Positions 20,447 to 31,916 of a DNA stretch of 37,978 bases are shown one piece after another (position 1 is the first letter of the stretch; every line of letters starts with the position of its first letter). Made by a program: the position numbers and the translations under genes. Origin of the DNA: an uncultured Caryophanales bacterium (GTDB taxonomy: Bacteria > Bacillota_I > Bacilli_A > RF39 > UBA660); contig CAMVMQ010000004.1 of assembly GCA_947168625.1 (NCBI GenBank), forward strand, positions 1 to 37,978, given 5' to 3'. The notes below the pieces were generated by a model. It worked only from the letters and a program-made list of their open reading frames with translations. It ran no database searches and was not told where the DNA came from.

Positions 20447-20728
20447 TTATAGTCTATCATATTGAGTCCACATTCTAATTATATGAATTTCTTTTTTTTG
20501 CTCATCAACTTCATATACAATTCTATGTTGCCTGTTAATTCGTCTAGAATATAATCCTGTTAAATCACCGCTTAATTTTTCATAAGATGGTGGATAGCCA
20601 AAAGGGTCTTCCATCATTAATACTAAAATATTTATAGCATTTTTATCTAATCCAGAACTTTTGAGTTTAATTTTATCTTTTCCAGCTTGCTTTGAAAATA
20701 ATATTTTGTATTTATTGCCACTCTTCAT
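20447..20728 (-). CDS. Txe/YoeB-family addiction toxin (RNase-fold)
   Basis: YoeB-type toxins are ribosome-dependent mRNA endonucleases. The 93-residue product shows the family text YEKLSGDLTGLYSRRINRQH (residues 49-68) followed by RIVYEVDE and a C-terminal IIRMWTQYDRL. E50, R62 or R63 and Y90 match known catalytic positions by eye, but the His before the C-terminal Tyr of E. coli YoeB (H83) is Q89 here, so activity may be reduced. The ATG at 20728 has AAGGAG 10 bases upstream and lies inside the antitoxin gene (17-base overlap). An upstream GTG at 20749 is less likely. Confidence 0.9.
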   Translation of the reverse strand: MKSGNKYKILFSKQAGKDKIKLKSSGLDKNAINILVLMMEDPFGYPPSYEKLSGDLTGLYSRRINRQHRIVYEVDEQKKEIHIIRMWTQYDRL

Positions 20729-20972
20729 TTGGATCAAACTCCTTAGCACTACTCCAATCCTCTTTTTTTCTTATTTCATTAATTCTTTCTACATATCCAG
20801 GAATACTTGATAAATATAATGTTTCTTCAATATTTTTCCACTCATCCTCAGATATCAAAACAGCATTTTTACCTTTATTATTAACAATTGTAATAGGATT
20901 AAAGCCAACATTTACATCAGATACTAATTGAAATAAATTAGCTCTTGCATTAGTAATATTTATTGTGCTCAT
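20712..20972 (-). CDS. Phd/YefM-family antitoxin
   Basis: The 86-residue protein starts MSTINITNARANLFQLVSDV, a clear Phd/YefM N-terminal DNA-binding domain, with NPITIVNNKGKNAVLISEDEW at residues about 28-48. Its C-terminal part (SSIPGYVERINEIRKKEDWSS) should wrap around and neutralise the toxin. The ATG at 20972 has GAGGTGA upstream; an in-frame GTG at 20981 overlaps this site. These antitoxins repress their own promoter, which agrees with the palindrome found between -35 and -10 of the upstream promoter. Confidence 0.93.
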   Translation of the reverse strand: MSTINITNARANLFQLVSDVNVGFNPITIVNNKGKNAVLISEDEWKNIEETLYLSSIPGYVERINEIRKKEDWSSAKEFDPNEEWQ

Positions 20973-25934: not shown

Positions 25935-27194
25935 CTAGTAGGTTATTATTTTCTTACTTGTTTCTGCTAATCTACCACTATCTGATTCTTTTATGGTGAT
26001 TACATTCTTATTACCATCTGAGATATATCTTGTATTTTTTAGTATGTTAAAGACCATTTGAATATCAAATTCTTTACCATTATTGTCATAAGCTCTGCAT
26101 CTTTTTAAAAAGGTTTTATCAAAATCTTTATCATAAGAAGAATACTCTGGTTCCCATCCTACTCTTAAAGCTGCTTCTGTTTCATATGTCTTACCATTAT
26201 AAGTACTGGATAAAACATATTTAAAGTTATCATGTGTTTTAACATAAGGACTGCCAAATGGAAGAGCTATAATTTTAATATACTTTCCTGGTATTATCTC
26301 TTCTAATTTATCATAAACATAACCTATTTCCTTTTGAACTTCTTCTGAACTTGATTTTTTTATATCAAGATGATACTGCGTGTGATTACCAACATCATAA
26401 CCATTATCAACGAGAAATTTTAGAATCTTTTCATTATAATCATTTTGATTGAAAATACCACCATTTACAAAGAATGTTGCTGTTACACCAGCATCAGAGT
26501 GTTTATTACGAAATTCTTCCATTATACCAACTGCACTATTTTTGTCAATAACAATATTACCATCATCATCTAATCCTGTAACTCTAATATTATCTTCATT
26601 GCCATCATCAAAAGTTAGAATAATTGGACTCTTTCCGTATGGAACATCAATATCTCCATGAATAAAATCAATAAGTCTAATCATATAATAACCATTATCA
26701 TAATAGAACTCTAAATCTTCGCGAAAAGCCTCTGGTGTTCTATTATAACCGTCTTTATCAACATTACCTCCTACTGTACCGGTACTATTAGAGGTTTTCT
26801 CTCTAATACCATGATACATCATAATAGGAACTTTACCGAGTTCATTAATATTATCACTAGCTAATTTTTCTTTATCTAATTTACCAAGAGAAATAACAAT
26901 GTCAAGATTCATATTATCTTTAAGTTTAGTCTTTTCCTTAATGCTTTGAGAAATAACTTTATCTTTTTCTATTTCATCACTATATTCATATGTAATATTA
27001 ACATTCATCTTGTATTTGTCTTTAATAGTGTCTATATCATTTATATTAGTAAGTAAAGGCATATAATCTATTTTTTTATTTTTAACATTCTTATCACTAT
27101 TAAAGGCAATATAAAAGGCTAATGCCCCTATTAATATTAGGCAAGGTATTAAATATACTATTTTTTTTATTTTTCTTTTTCTTGTCTTGGTCAT
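25935..27194 (-). CDS. Membrane-anchored polysaccharide deacetylase with PASTA-like domain
   Basis: CE4 (NodB) deacetylases remove acetyl groups from peptidoglycan or other surface glycans. The 419-residue protein has a cytoplasmic basic tail, one membrane helix (13-31), and a PASTA-like segment (about 46-104) ending with KVISQSIKEKTKLKDNMNLD and VISLG. The NodB domain follows: MMYHGI (125-130), TFDDG (194-198, catalytic Asp and metal Asp), and GNHTQYH (269-275) giving the metal His pair H271 and H275. PASTA domains usually bind muropeptides, so it may be a sensor-guided wall modifier (inference). It has its own promoter. Confidence 0.88.
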   Translation of the reverse strand: MTKTRKRKIKKIVYLIPCLILIGALAFYIAFNSDKNVKNKKIDYMPLLTNINDIDTIKDKYKMNVNITYEYSDEIEKDKVISQSIKEKTKLKDNMNLDIVISLGKLDKEKLASDNINELGKVPIMMYHGIREKTSNSTGTVGGNVDKDGYNRTPEAFREDLEFYYDNGYYMIRLIDFIHGDIDVPYGKSPIILTFDDGNEDNIRVTGLDDDGNIVIDKNSAVGIMEEFRNKHSDAGVTATFFVNGGIFNQNDYNEKILKFLVDNGYDVGNHTQYHLDIKKSSSEEVQKEIGYVYDKLEEIIPGKYIKIIALPFGSPYVKTHDNFKYVLSSTYNGKTYETEAALRVGWEPEYSSYDKDFDKTFLKRCRAYDNNGKEFDIQMVFNILKNTRYISDGNKNVITIKESDSGRLAETSKKIITY

Positions 27195-27271: not shown

Positions 27272-28063
27272 TTATTCGCTTAATAATTCTATTAGTGGTA
27301 CTATATCATATCCCTTACTGTAAATATATTTTTTAATAATGTTAATATTATCTATGTTTGGAATGAGAATAATACTTCCGTTTTTTAAATTATCTTTTAT
27401 TTCTTTGTAGTCTCCTATTAGATTAGGGATTACTGTATACATATCATTTTCTTTGCAGATGTTTAATGTCTCATAATCTTTATCTTTACTAAGGCAGTAA
27501 TTTGATCTACTATTAGTTAGTGTATTAATTAGAGTATTATCATTAAGAAGTATTTCTTTACTATATTTTCCATTATTTCCATATGTATATATTTCTTTAC
27601 TTTTTAACTTATTTAAATTGTCAATTGTTAATAGATTATGATTAATAAATAGGGTAACATTATTAATATCTTTATATTTATTAATATTATTGTTTATAAT
27701 TATGATAATAGCTACTTTCTTTTTCTTATTATTACCGCTAATTATAAATTTATCCATATTGCTAGAAATACTAATTCCTGGAACAATATCATCATATATT
27801 ATATTTTCTTCTCTAAAAGTATTATAATCTTTCATATTATCAAATGACTTCTTTATATTTACTCTTCTTCCTTTAATACCTGGTATTACTTCATCTTCAT
27901 AAATAGTAGCATTAACTTCTTTAATCTCATAAGTACTACTTTTACTCTTAATTGTTTTCATTAAAGTACTATGATTATTAATAAAATTAAGTACCCTGTC
28001 TGTATAAAAAAAACTAAAACATACTAGAATTAATAAGGATAGTTTTCTCATTATTTCTTTCAA
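27272..28063 (-). CDS. Membrane-anchored protein, possible deacetylase remnant
   Basis: I do not recognise the family with confidence. The 263-residue protein has an N-terminal hydrophobic anchor (LSLLILVCFSFFY near residue 8) and an extracellular region. The C-terminal end (GSIILIPN, then IIKKYIYSKGYDIVPLIELL) strongly recalls the last strand and helix of CE4 deacetylases, but TFDDG and HxxxH are absent. So it could be a catalytically dead relative with a binding role. TTG at 28063 lies 5 bases from AGGTGG and is preferred; an ATG at 28051 and GTG at 28072 are alternatives. It is followed by a strong terminator. Confidence 0.72.
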   Translation of the reverse strand: MKEIMRKLSLLILVCFSFFYTDRVLNFINNHSTLMKTIKSKSSTYEIKEVNATIYEDEVIPGIKGRRVNIKKSFDNMKDYNTFREENIIYDDIVPGISISSNMDKFIISGNNKKKKVAIIIIINNNINKYKDINNVTLFINHNLLTIDNLNKLKSKEIYTYGNNGKYSKEILLNDNTLINTLTNSRSNYCLSKDKDYETLNICKENDMYTVIPNLIGDYKEIKDNLKNGSIILIPNIDNINIIKKYIYSKGYDIVPLIELLSE

Positions 28064-28106
28064 AATAACCACCTAATTAATCATATGTTTTAGTTTTATA
28101 ATTATA

Positions 28107-29417
28107 TTATCTACGTTTTTTATTTTTACCCTTTTTTATTAAAATAATAGCTAAGGTGATAATCAATACACCTACTAATGCTATAGAAATATATAAATAA
28201 AGATTTGCTTTATCAAGTTTATTCATATAATACATTACTAAATCTTCATTATATCTTTGAATTGTTCCTTCTTCCTTATCGTAGATATACATTCCCTTTT
28301 TACCATTATCTTCATTTTCAGCATATACTAGATAGAATGAGCTTCCTTTTACTTTATCTGACGCAGCATATGTAACGCCTTTCTTAAAATACTGGTATCC
28401 TTCTATTTTATCATCATCGTAAGTAAAAGTAACTTTGGCATAACCACTTGGTAATAATTTTTTAGGTATGCTTAGTAATTTTAAGCTAATGCCATTTACG
28501 TTAATATTCTTATATGGTGTATATTTACCAGTCTTTTCATCATAAATAAAATACTTTGATTCTTTTCCATCAGATAATCCAACTAAAATACTATTGGTTT
28601 TTTTATTTTTATAGCATAATATATCATTTCCATCTATTTTAATAGATGACTTTTCATAACTAACAGGGGTCTCTAATAAACCTTCTTTCCTAATAATAGT
28701 ATATTTTTTATTATTAATCATTACTTCAATTGGATCTAATTCTTTAACAGTAACATTAACAACATATGTCTTAACATTACCATTTTCTGCTTCTACCTTA
28801 ATTTCAAACTTATTTAGTCCTTCAATTACTTCTTTTTCTCCAGTACCACTAATACTAGCTTTACTATCTTCTTTATCTGCATTTATAGTAATTTTCTTTG
28901 TATCATTAGGAACTTCTATACTATACTCTAAGGTGTCTTTGTTAAATTCAGGACTTAAAGAATAACCTTCTACTGAAAGAGCTTTTAGATTATTGTTACT
29001 ACTATAAACTTTAGGGGCAACCACAGCTGGCTGCTTAACACTAATAGATAGGCTCTTATTGTCAAGAGATTGCCATGAATCAGAAGACATATTAGTAATA
29101 CGTACTCCTGAAGTACTACAAGTAACTGTTCCACTTAAAGTAGGTTTAATAGTTATACTATAACTCTTACTCTTAATTGAATTACTAGAGTCATCAAAGA
29201 CCATATCAAGTCCTTCACTTACTCCTGCCCCCTTGCACATAAATGTACCTTCAATACTAACTAGAGGACTATCAGATGATACACTAGCAGTAATTGTAAC
29301 GCTGTTTCCTTTCGTTACTGAAGTATTTCCTCCAATAGTAACACTACTAGCAAAACAATAAGTGCTAAAACTTATGAATAATACTATGCTAATTATCAAA
29401 TATTTAATCTTTCTCAT
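28107..29417 (-). CDS. Membrane-anchored surface protein: cohesin-like? and cadherin-like domains
   Basis: A 436-residue type I membrane protein: signal peptide (about 1-23), a beta-rich domain (25-129: VTIGGNTSVTKGNSVTITAS to SDSWQSLDNKSLSISVK), a cadherin-like beta-sandwich (PF12733 type, 139-226: NNLKALSVEGYSLSPEFNKD and VEAENGNVKTYVVNV), a third beta domain (230-395), a membrane helix (404-428) and a basic tail KKGKNKKRR. The first domain resembles the cohesin/Ig-like modules that often precede cadherin-like domains in Clostridia surface proteins; this is pattern matching, not proof. It directly follows (9 bases) a dockerin protein. C61 and C100 may form a disulfide. Confidence 0.85.
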   Translation of the reverse strand: MRKIKYLIISIVLFISFSTYCFASSVTIGGNTSVTKGNSVTITASVSSDSPLVSIEGTFMCKGAGVSEGLDMVFDDSSNSIKSKSYSITIKPTLSGTVTCSTSGVRITNMSSDSWQSLDNKSLSISVKQPAVVAPKVYSSNNNLKALSVEGYSLSPEFNKDTLEYSIEVPNDTKKITINADKEDSKASISGTGEKEVIEGLNKFEIKVEAENGNVKTYVVNVTVKELDPIEVMINNKKYTIIRKEGLLETPVSYEKSSIKIDGNDILCYKNKKTNSILVGLSDGKESKYFIYDEKTGKYTPYKNINVNGISLKLLSIPKKLLPSGYAKVTFTYDDDKIEGYQYFKKGVTYAASDKVKGSSFYLVYAENEDNGKKGMYIYDKEEGTIQRYNEDLVMYYMNKLDKANLYLYISIALVGVLIITLAIILIKKGKNKKRR

Positions 29418-29426
29418 ATATACCTC

Positions 29427-31916
29427 CTACTGAGTTATTTTCTTATATCCATAATAATCTCTTAATACAGCTAAATAATCAAGCTTATCAACGTTACCAT
29501 CACGATTAACATCTGCTGCTACTTTATAAGCACCACTATACTTTGTATAACCATAATAATCTCTTAAAATAGCTAAATAATCGAGTTTGTCAATAGTACC
29601 ATCCCCATTTACGTCTCCATAAATAACAATATTGTACGAGCTTTCTTTTCCGGCAATTTTAATTTTTAGAGTATCTCCTGTTACAAAAGTGCCACTTTTT
29701 TCTATTCCATTCTTATCATCTACTCGAGCACTGATACCATCACTAACTTTCTTTAGATTATTAATAAGACTATTAATACCTGTATTAATATCTATGCCAT
29801 AAATATAATCATTATTATACTTAATACCACTAGAACTCAACGCCTTATCAACACTTACTTCACTTCTTCTGATATTTAAAATATACTCTTTAACACTACC
29901 ATCTTCAGCTTTAACACTAATATTAATTTTATTTAATCCAACAATTAAATCAAAATTCTTAATATTATCACTTGTACTAGTAGTATCTTCAAATTCATAA
30001 GTTAAATTAATATTATTTACCTCAAATGGAACTTCTAAATTATATTCTAAAGTATTTTTATCAAAAGTAAAATCAAGTTTATCTATAGTTAAACTCTTCA
30101 AACTATTATTACTAGATAAAGTAATATTTTCTTCTTTAGCCTTTTTTATAATAGTTAAATTGTAATAACTAACATCGCCATTTTCTGCAGTAACTGTAAT
30201 AGTTTTTTTATTTTCCCCTGGAAGAAGATTTATAGAACCAGTACCAGACACTGATGCTTTACTACTAATAGAAGAAGCTTCTAGTAATACCTCATTAGTG
30301 GTACTTTCTACTTCAATAAGATAATTAAGATTATTATACTTAAAGTTATCAATATCATCGCCATCTATTTTAATAGTTTTTAGATAGCTATTAGGATTTT
30401 TATTAGCAGGCGCAGCAACTTTATTACTTGGCATATTTTCATAAACTGGAATAATAAAAGCTAAAGGTTCATCAAAAATACCAGATATTGCACTATAACT
30501 ATTATAAGTACTAAGCCCCTCAGTTAAAGGTGCAGTAATATTTTGCATATATTGATGACTATATCTGTTAGAATCAGTGACATTAAATTTCTGAAAATAT
30601 AACGTATTCTGTCCAACACTAATATAATCTTCGCTCAAGAATCTAGCTCCTCCATTAATTGATTTATATGGAGTATCCCATGGTCTTAAATAAGAAGTAC
30701 CACTATGATCTTCTCCCCCCATTGCCCAAACTAGACCATTAATTGCTGGATTACTACCGGTTGCTTTAATATTATAAAAATTATAATATCCTGAATATTT
30801 ATTACCATTATAGGTAAATTCATTACCCAATGAAGCAATACTACCATTTATTCCTTGTTCTTGGAGAACTCTACTAGCCAAATGTACTGGGCTAACATTA
30901 TAATTGTTCGCAGCATCCATAAAAGCCGTAGTATAACTATCTTCACTATACTTTTTATAAAGTCCAGGCATAAAACTATTTCCAAGAATCTTATCAACTA
31001 CATCTGATGTCTGAAAAGATGCTTCATAAGACAAAGACTCAAACATGAAGATATTCTTGGTATTTAAATAATTTCTTGGATCCATAAAATACTTAATTGC
31101 CTCTTCACTAGCATACCACCAATTAACTTCTGTATTATGGCGATAATACTCATCTTTCTCATAACTATAACTATAATCTTTCTTGCTACGATAACCCTCG
31201 CCATATGTGTAATAAACAAGATTCCTTCCTTTTACACTCTCATTTTCGATTACTGTATTCCAATCTAAATTAGTTTTGTACGCGATAAAATTCCATTTAG
31301 GATACATTAAATGAATTTTAGTTAAATCATCTATATAGCTCTCAGGAAAACCAGCTGATTTAAGGCTTTCCTTATACAAAGTAACACTTTCATCATTATC
31401 ATCTACTTCTACATCGGTAATAACATAAGTTCCGCAAACATATCCTTCTTTATTATCTCCGTAAGATACTTTGTACCAGTTTGAGCAATAGCCAGCAGCT
31501 CCTAAAGTATCATCAAGAACAGTCATTTCAGTATCACATGATAATCTATCAATAATTTTACCATTAATACTCTCTCTTACTGTTAATGGATCATCATTCT
31601 CAATACATGATACTTTTCCTTTAATATTCTTATTAACTTTATTAATACTAATATATTCTCCACAAGAAAAGCCTTCAAGAATGCCTTGCTTAATTTGATA
31701 CCATTTACTACAATTATTATTACTACCAGCATTATTATTTAGTATTTCAACTGAAGAATTACAAGAAAGTCCTCCTATTACATTACCATCGATACTACTT
31801 CTTACATTTAATGGGGATGTATCTCCTCCTGAACATATAACGGTCCCAGTATCTGCTTTAACACTGTGTACAATAGATATAAATATTATAAATATAAATA
31901 ATAAATATTTCTTCAT
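29427..31916 (-). CDS. Secreted glucosaminidase-like protein with SH3b, cadherin-like and dockerin domains
   Basis: An 829-residue secreted protein. Order: signal peptide (about 1-21); two bacterial SH3 domains (22-92 and 98-167, PLNVRSS and PLTVRES), each with four cysteines (C28, C52, C69, C85; C104, C127, C144, C161); a linker; a LytB/glucosaminidase-type domain (about 330-480) with HLASRVLQEQGINGS, whose E353 is the likely catalytic acid, and NFYNIKATGSNPA; two cadherin-like sandwiches (508-590, 603-687); and a duplicated type I dockerin (767-829). Each dockerin loop reads DVNxDGxxDKLD, the calcium-binding form. Dockerins bind cohesins. It probably cuts peptidoglycan at the surface (inference). 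Confidence 0.9.
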   Translation of the reverse strand: MKKYLLFIFIIFISIVHSVKADTGTVICSGGDTSPLNVRSSIDGNVIGGLSCNSSVEILNNNAGSNNNCSKWYQIKQGILEGFSCGEYISINKVNKNIKGKVSCIENDDPLTVRESINGKIIDRLSCDTEMTVLDDTLGAAGYCSNWYKVSYGDNKEGYVCGTYVITDVEVDDNDESVTLYKESLKSAGFPESYIDDLTKIHLMYPKWNFIAYKTNLDWNTVIENESVKGRNLVYYTYGEGYRSKKDYSYSYEKDEYYRHNTEVNWWYASEEAIKYFMDPRNYLNTKNIFMFESLSYEASFQTSDVVDKILGNSFMPGLYKKYSEDSYTTAFMDAANNYNVSPVHLASRVLQEQGINGSIASLGNEFTYNGNKYSGYYNFYNIKATGSNPAINGLVWAMGGEDHSGTSYLRPWDTPYKSINGGARFLSEDYISVGQNTLYFQKFNVTDSNRYSHQYMQNITAPLTEGLSTYNSYSAISGIFDEPLAFIIPVYENMPSNKVAAPANKNPNSYLKTIKIDGDDIDNFKYNNLNYLIEVESTTNEVLLEASSISSKASVSGTGSINLLPGENKKTITVTAENGDVSYYNLTIIKKAKEENITLSSNNSLKSLTIDKLDFTFDKNTLEYNLEVPFEVNNINLTYEFEDTTSTSDNIKNFDLIVGLNKINISVKAEDGSVKEYILNIRRSEVSVDKALSSSGIKYNNDYIYGIDINTGINSLINNLKKVSDGISARVDDKNGIEKSGTFVTGDTLKIKIAGKESSYNIVIYGDVNGDGTIDKLDYLAILRDYYGYTKYSGAYKVAADVNRDGNVDKLDYLAVLRDYYGYKKITQ

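Follow-up and report, generated by a model that had tools for sequence, protein, structure and literature searches.

Two neighbouring genes in a 37,978-nucleotide (nt) window of DNA from an uncultured Caryophanales bacterium (the window being the whole stretch analysed) very probably encode a secreted glucosaminidase acting on peptidoglycan and the protein that tethers it to the cell's own membrane, joined through a cohesin–dockerin pair whose binding is predicted from sequence. The enzyme, an open reading frame (ORF) of 829 amino acids (aa) at 29427–31916 on the minus strand, ends in a dockerin, while the next gene, at 28107–29417 on the same strand, encodes a 436-aa membrane-anchored partner with a cohesin-like N-domain. 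The two genes are spaced by 9 nt and, as the AGGAGG ribosome-binding site of the partner overlaps the stop codon of the enzyme, translational coupling from enzyme to partner is likely. An earlier note on this DNA had proposed that such a pair displays a wall hydrolase on the membrane of the cell that makes it, and this proposal is now strengthened by the recurrence of the pair across genomes, by the cohesins found among orthologous partners and by the co-variation of recognition residues.

The distribution of the pair was assessed in 291 genomes of the same family (~150 genera, genome sizes roughly 0.5–1.8 megabases). A dockerin is present in 220 of these genomes, and 214 have a match to the anchored-partner profile at 1e-20, a few via the Cadherin-like domain only. 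Of 130 loci taken by partner match alone, with the upstream gene disregarded, 129 have a dockerin at the end of the gene next upstream, with a gap of −58 to +25 nt, and every N-domain-bearing partner from another two families in the class (12/12) likewise sits behind a dockerin enzyme. The gene pair recurs in >100 genera, which rules out chance adjacency. At two loci (L219 and L220, genomes G463 and G452) the partner orthologue begins at the Cadherin-like domain and is without the N-domain; these genomes, which are 98–99% complete, have no dockerin gene upstream of the partner and no dockerin in the whole genome. As the two genomes are related, this joint absence of plug and socket may be a single event.

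The enzyme carries a complete type I dockerin at its C-terminus, as the earlier note had read it, with a Pfam Dockerin_1 match over residues 766–817 (E 5e-11; 43.0 bits, cut-off 22.9). It consists of two EF-hand-like loop–helix repeats with Asp/Asn at positions 1, 3, 5, 9 and 12 (DVNGDGTIDKLD and DVNRDGNVDKLD), in which both loops read DVNxDGxxDKLD and the flanking helices are near-identical (YLAILRDYYGY and YLAVLRDYYGY). The Lys10–Leu11 symmetry that the note had pointed out is present in each loop and extends to all seven recognition residues (K10, L11, Y13, L14, L17, R18 and Y21; 7/7 identical between repeats); these seven positions were chosen on the present data, although five are either identical with or adjacent to published positions. 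Across 128 dockerins, the two repeats agree at a mean of 6.4/7 recognition positions within a dockerin, compared with 2.8/7 between species, and are identical at all seven in 78. The symmetry in the window is therefore one instance of a family-wide constraint, as would be expected for dual binding (PMC12484212).

Distance matrices computed from 115 complete enzyme–partner pairs revealed a strong correlation between N-domain and dockerin (r = 0.717), with every other pair of segments, including neighbours on the same polypeptide, at r = 0.12–0.31. The partial rank Mantel value for N-domain and dockerin, given the catalytic, Cadherin-like and middle domains, was 0.657 (p = 0.001, with the 999 permutations reaching at most 0.157), and a value of 0.679 was obtained after thinning to 72 divergent pairs. 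Mutual information was in excess at dockerin positions 10, 11, 13, 14, 17, 18 and 21 of both repeats. Published dockerin specificity positions are 10, 11, 17, 18 and 22 (PMC5748583), and with these positions only, which were picked independently of our data, the partial value was 0.673; it was 0.048 for ten other variable dockerin positions and 0.050 for non-recognition dockerin positions matched in entropy. The signal peptide of the partner, which is encoded between the two domains, gave values of 0.055 and 0.024 against them. At the level of sequence, the co-variation is thus confined to the published recognition positions of the dockerin, and the values for the entropy-matched positions and the signal peptide mean that co-inheritance of a DNA segment fails to explain it. 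The resulting classes are close to one-to-one: LR dockerins, the class of the window, occur only with one N-type and RQ dockerins only with another, while KN dockerins occur with a third N-type and QK dockerins with canonical cohesins. The tree shows at least 33 changes of dockerin class. Since plug and socket have changed in step across >100 genera, the pair very probably binds.

The earlier note had placed a possible cohesin at residues 25–129 of the partner, and this identification is now well supported through its orthologues. Cohesin (PF00963) is the commonest Pfam match among 128 orthologous N-domains, being found in 76 at E ≤ 0.01 (best 2.4e-10), and scores above the cut-off in 128 of the 291 family genomes, with many of the matches in the partner gene. 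A profile of 32 N-domains has solved cohesins as its top matches in the PDB (3l8q at 4e-7, then 5g5d, 2y3n, 1tyj and others), the match covering mainly the first half of the domain. Profiles of the window-type and cohesin-type N-domains align with an hhalign probability of 97.8% over 104 columns, with controls (Cadherin-like, middle-domain, reversed and shuffled) at ≤6%; these hhalign values are single comparisons of low-diversity profiles, and the E-values are not database-wide. By sequence, the N-domains of the family as a whole are cohesins. For the window itself, the profile similarity and the orthologous position in an orthologous protein argue for common descent with the recognised cohesins, and we infer that its N-domain is a cohesin-derived, shortened, immunoglobulin-like (Ig-like) socket. 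The AlphaFold2 (AF2) model of this domain is a beta-sandwich, with a predicted local distance difference test (pLDDT) score of 85–95 over most of its length. Among the 128 N-domains, 37 match the Pfam chagasin-type inhibitor I42 and 68 match BatD, and the short sockets of class KN (e.g. L013, L094 and L099) look Ig-like rather than like canonical cohesins.

Several results weigh against the proposed pairing or against the cohesin identity of the window's socket. The N-domain of the window has no Pfam cohesin match in a direct search, and a PDB search with the window-type profile yields no cohesin. The cohesin fold is a nine-stranded jelly-roll sandwich, and the AF2 model is nearest to CARDB/Ig-like folds in Foldseek (template-modelling score 0.6 by target), with no cohesin among the best 50 matches. 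AF2 of the dockerin and N-domain, joined into a single chain by translating across the in-frame TAG that separates them, gave no usable interface, with a 7-row alignment for which four loci were admissible and with dockerin pLDDT <40. After correction for the tree, the independent-pairs test of co-variation is small, with p about 0.06 and the direction right (about 4.6 same, 0 opposite). The exception among the 130 loci (L189, genome G244) keeps a cohesin-type N-domain while its upstream enzyme ORF ends before any dockerin; this genome holds four other dockerins.

The assignment of the enzyme as a secreted glucosaminidase, also made in the earlier note, was borne out by its database matches. 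Its catalytic part matches the GH73 structures 6fxo, 6fxp and 6u0o in the PDB (E 4e-12 to 3e-11), the last of which we take to be SagB in complex with SpdC, and the presumed catalytic glutamate, E353, is invariant in 115/115 orthologues. By homology, the enzyme is a GH73/SagB-type glucosaminidase at family level only, since it misses the cut-off of the full-length SagB equivalog (425 bits). Hydropathy indicates a membrane segment after the N-terminus in 1/116 enzymes compared with 129/130 partners, and the signal peptide, Cadherin-like domain and membrane anchor previously described for the partner were all recovered (Table 1). The membrane-proximal domain of the partner (residues 228–400) is conserved across genera; it belongs to no Pfam family, and Foldseek gave no match for it below E 1e-3.

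Together, the domain architecture and the co-variation suggest a mechanism in which the enzyme would be exported without a membrane anchor, ending in its type I dockerin, while the partner would be exported and held in the membrane by its C-terminal helix with the cohesin-like N-domain outside the cell. The dockerin would bind to the N-domain; calcium is presumably involved, and the two-fold symmetry of the dockerin presumably allows either of two orientations. The enzyme would thereby be kept beside the membrane, most likely cutting newly made glycan strands, and may trim or release new strands by analogy with SagB–SpdC of Staphylococcus aureus, on which the cellular role proposed for the pair is modelled.

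A different emphasis is that the two proteins bind for the sake of control, the partner acting as an SpdC-like cofactor that sets the site or extent of cutting by the glucosaminidase, with domain 228–400 regulating. SagB is the closest named family of the enzyme, SagB of S. aureus comes under the control of a membrane protein, SpdC, that contacts it directly (PMC12272431), and the conserved extra domain would be needless for a plain tether; however, the partner is not of the CAAX-protease type like SpdC. We regard this reading as possible but somewhat doubtful, and it could hold alongside tethering.

The genome of the window contains a second cohesin–dockerin set, on contig C71 (L002:55-2393 and L003:3-695). 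It comprises a protein with a dockerin; a protein of 548 aa that has a membrane segment at its N-terminus and also a cohesin-like domain (recognised by eye), a Cadherin-like domain and a dockerin; and a 230-aa protein, judged cohesin-like by eye, whose C-terminus carries a membrane anchor. The same draft genome has one N-domain of the partner type and no Pfam cohesin above the cut-off, with a sub-threshold match elsewhere only. Given such further cohesin-like domains beside dockerins, and the predicted Ig-like fold of the window N-domain, the enzyme's dockerin might dock on another cohesin or scaffold, such as the C71 set, leaving the neighbour's N-domain as merely an Ig-like wall-binding domain. 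We consider this very unlikely, as the N-domain co-varies with exactly the recognition residues of the dockerin, the C71 dockerins carry different recognition residues, and many family genomes have a single dockerin which, in the loci examined, is the one beside this partner. Least probable of all is that the correlation arose by recombination, with the dockerin end and N-domain start, which lie within ~100 base pairs, exchanged together without binding: the two coding segments do adjoin and dockerin classes have changed repeatedly on the tree, but this linkage is largely refuted by the signal-peptide and entropy-matched controls given above, and no such signal is seen for the neighbouring Cadherin-like domain within the same protein (0.12).

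Table 1 Features of the enzyme–partner locus, with positions in the window.
Feature	Position	Strand	Evidence
829-aa secreted glucosaminidase with C-terminal dockerin, whole gene	29427-31916	-	ORF; Pfam SH3_3, Cadherin-like, Dockerin_1; NCBIfam SagB; PDB GH73 enzymes
Enzyme signal peptide (predicted), about residues 1-21	31854-31916	-	Hydropathy peak near N-terminus, none further on
Second bacterial SH3_3 domain of enzyme, residues 116-165	31422-31571	-	PF08239, protein E 8e-12, two stretches
SagB/GH73-like glucosaminidase domain, residues 261-460	30537-31136	-	NF052642 E 3.9e-17; PDB 6fxo, 6fxp, 6u0o
E353 codon, presumed catalytic glutamate	30858-30860	-	Aligns with ETG-motif Glu of S. aureus autolysin 6fxo
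Two Cadherin-like (PF12733) domains of enzyme	29853-30425 (30144-30425 + 29853-30119)	-	Pfam
Type I dockerin, residues 766-829	29430-29621	-	PF00404 E 5e-11; repeat symmetry
AGGAGG ribosome-binding site of partner gene, over TAG stop of enzyme	29423-29428	-	Sequence
436-aa membrane-anchored partner, whole gene	28107-29417	-	ORF; orthologues in 214/291 family genomes at E ≤ 1e-20
Partner signal peptide (predicted), about residues 1-23	29349-29417	-	Hydropathy; Ala-rich end conserved
Cohesin-like N-domain, residues 24-130, co-varying with dockerin	29028-29348	-	hhalign 97.8%; co-variation; AF2 beta-sandwich
Partner Cadherin-like beta-sandwich PF12733, residues 144-223	28749-28988	-	Pfam E 2.9e-9
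Membrane-proximal beta-rich domain, residues 228-400	28218-28736	-	AF2 mean pLDDT 84
C-terminal transmembrane segment, then short basic cytoplasmic tail	28134-28202	-	Hydropathy peak 2.9; in 129/130 partners

In addition to the features listed, the first SH3_3 domain of the enzyme lies at about residues 27–90. Downstream of the pair, also on the minus strand, are genes for a protein similar to the N-terminal region of YlxY (27272–28072) and a PASTA and polysaccharide-deacetylase protein (25935–27194). Locus L046 has the same downstream gene order as the window, which suggests a small cluster of cell-wall genes. Elsewhere in the window, a 100-aa ORF on the minus strand (20447–20749) resembles a YoeB/Txe-type toxin, as judged by eye.

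To our knowledge, what is known of cohesin–dockerin biology comes almost wholly from machines for digesting foreign polysaccharides, whereas here the same plug would be a conserved component of the wall metabolism of the bacterium itself. It seems likely to us that a genome-reduced lineage of Bacilli uses a one-to-one plug as housekeeping, stationing a glucosaminidase, and that it has diversified the plug into several mutually orthogonal classes, including sockets remodelled from cohesin to short Ig-like domains. The hosts of the pair are uncultured groups that probably lie near orders for which thin or lost walls are reported (PMC10868615), and if the present host lies in or near the order RF39, a thin wall is predicted for it. 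The pair suggests one way in which a secreted glucosaminidase may stay at the membrane without the staphylococcal SpdC arrangement, and the 115 natural pairs with repeatedly switched classes represent a ready data set for the cohesin–dockerin recognition code, as well as a source of orthogonal binding pairs (binding predicted). In searches whose coverage leaves out most subscription journals, no full-text paper contained both RF39 and dockerin, and no title or abstract described a dockerin-bearing wall hydrolase with an anchored cohesin.

The pair resembles the type I pairs of clostridial cellulosomes in its duplicated EF-hand-like dockerin, with symmetric residues at positions 10, 11, 17, 18 and 22, in its beta-sandwich partner, which is a Pfam cohesin in most orthologues here, and in its species-specific recognition (PMC5748583, PMC12484212). 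Unlike in those systems, one cohesin and one dockerin enzyme are encoded by neighbouring genes, the presumed substrate is the cell's own wall, there is no scaffoldin array or cellulose-binding module, and some lineages, including that of the window, have diverged Ig-like sockets. Nor is this a cellulosome, which takes a several-cohesin scaffoldin and plant-polysaccharide enzymes: the whole draft genome holds three dockerins, and the partner has one socket. The single-cohesin anchoring scaffoldin ScaE of Ruminococcus flavefaciens (PMC2930009) is likewise a surface protein that retains on the cell a partner bearing a dockerin, but ScaE is LPXTG-anchored by sortase and binds a scaffoldin, while the partner here has a transmembrane helix, would hold the enzyme itself and adds a Cadherin-like domain and a domain of no known family. 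Uses outside cellulose digestion have precedents in the non-cellulosomal cohesins and dockerins known in general (Peer et al. 2009, as cited in PMC2930009) and in the Limousia mucinolysome, a cohesin–dockerin machine for mucin (PMC12997984). These are scattered modules or multi-enzyme systems for foreign glycans, whereas here one conserved pair with a wall hydrolase extends across a whole family. In S. aureus, SagB–SpdC cuts nascent peptidoglycan at the membrane (PMC12272431), and the present system shares with it a SagB-like glucosaminidase and a membrane protein that would position or control it, while differing in that the contact is a dockerin/cohesin-like module and the partner is single-pass, SpdC being a polytopic protein of the CAAX family. 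By this analogy, our best reading is that the system works somewhat like staphylococcal SagB–SpdC, assembled by a cohesin–dockerin pair into a one-enzyme membrane tether.

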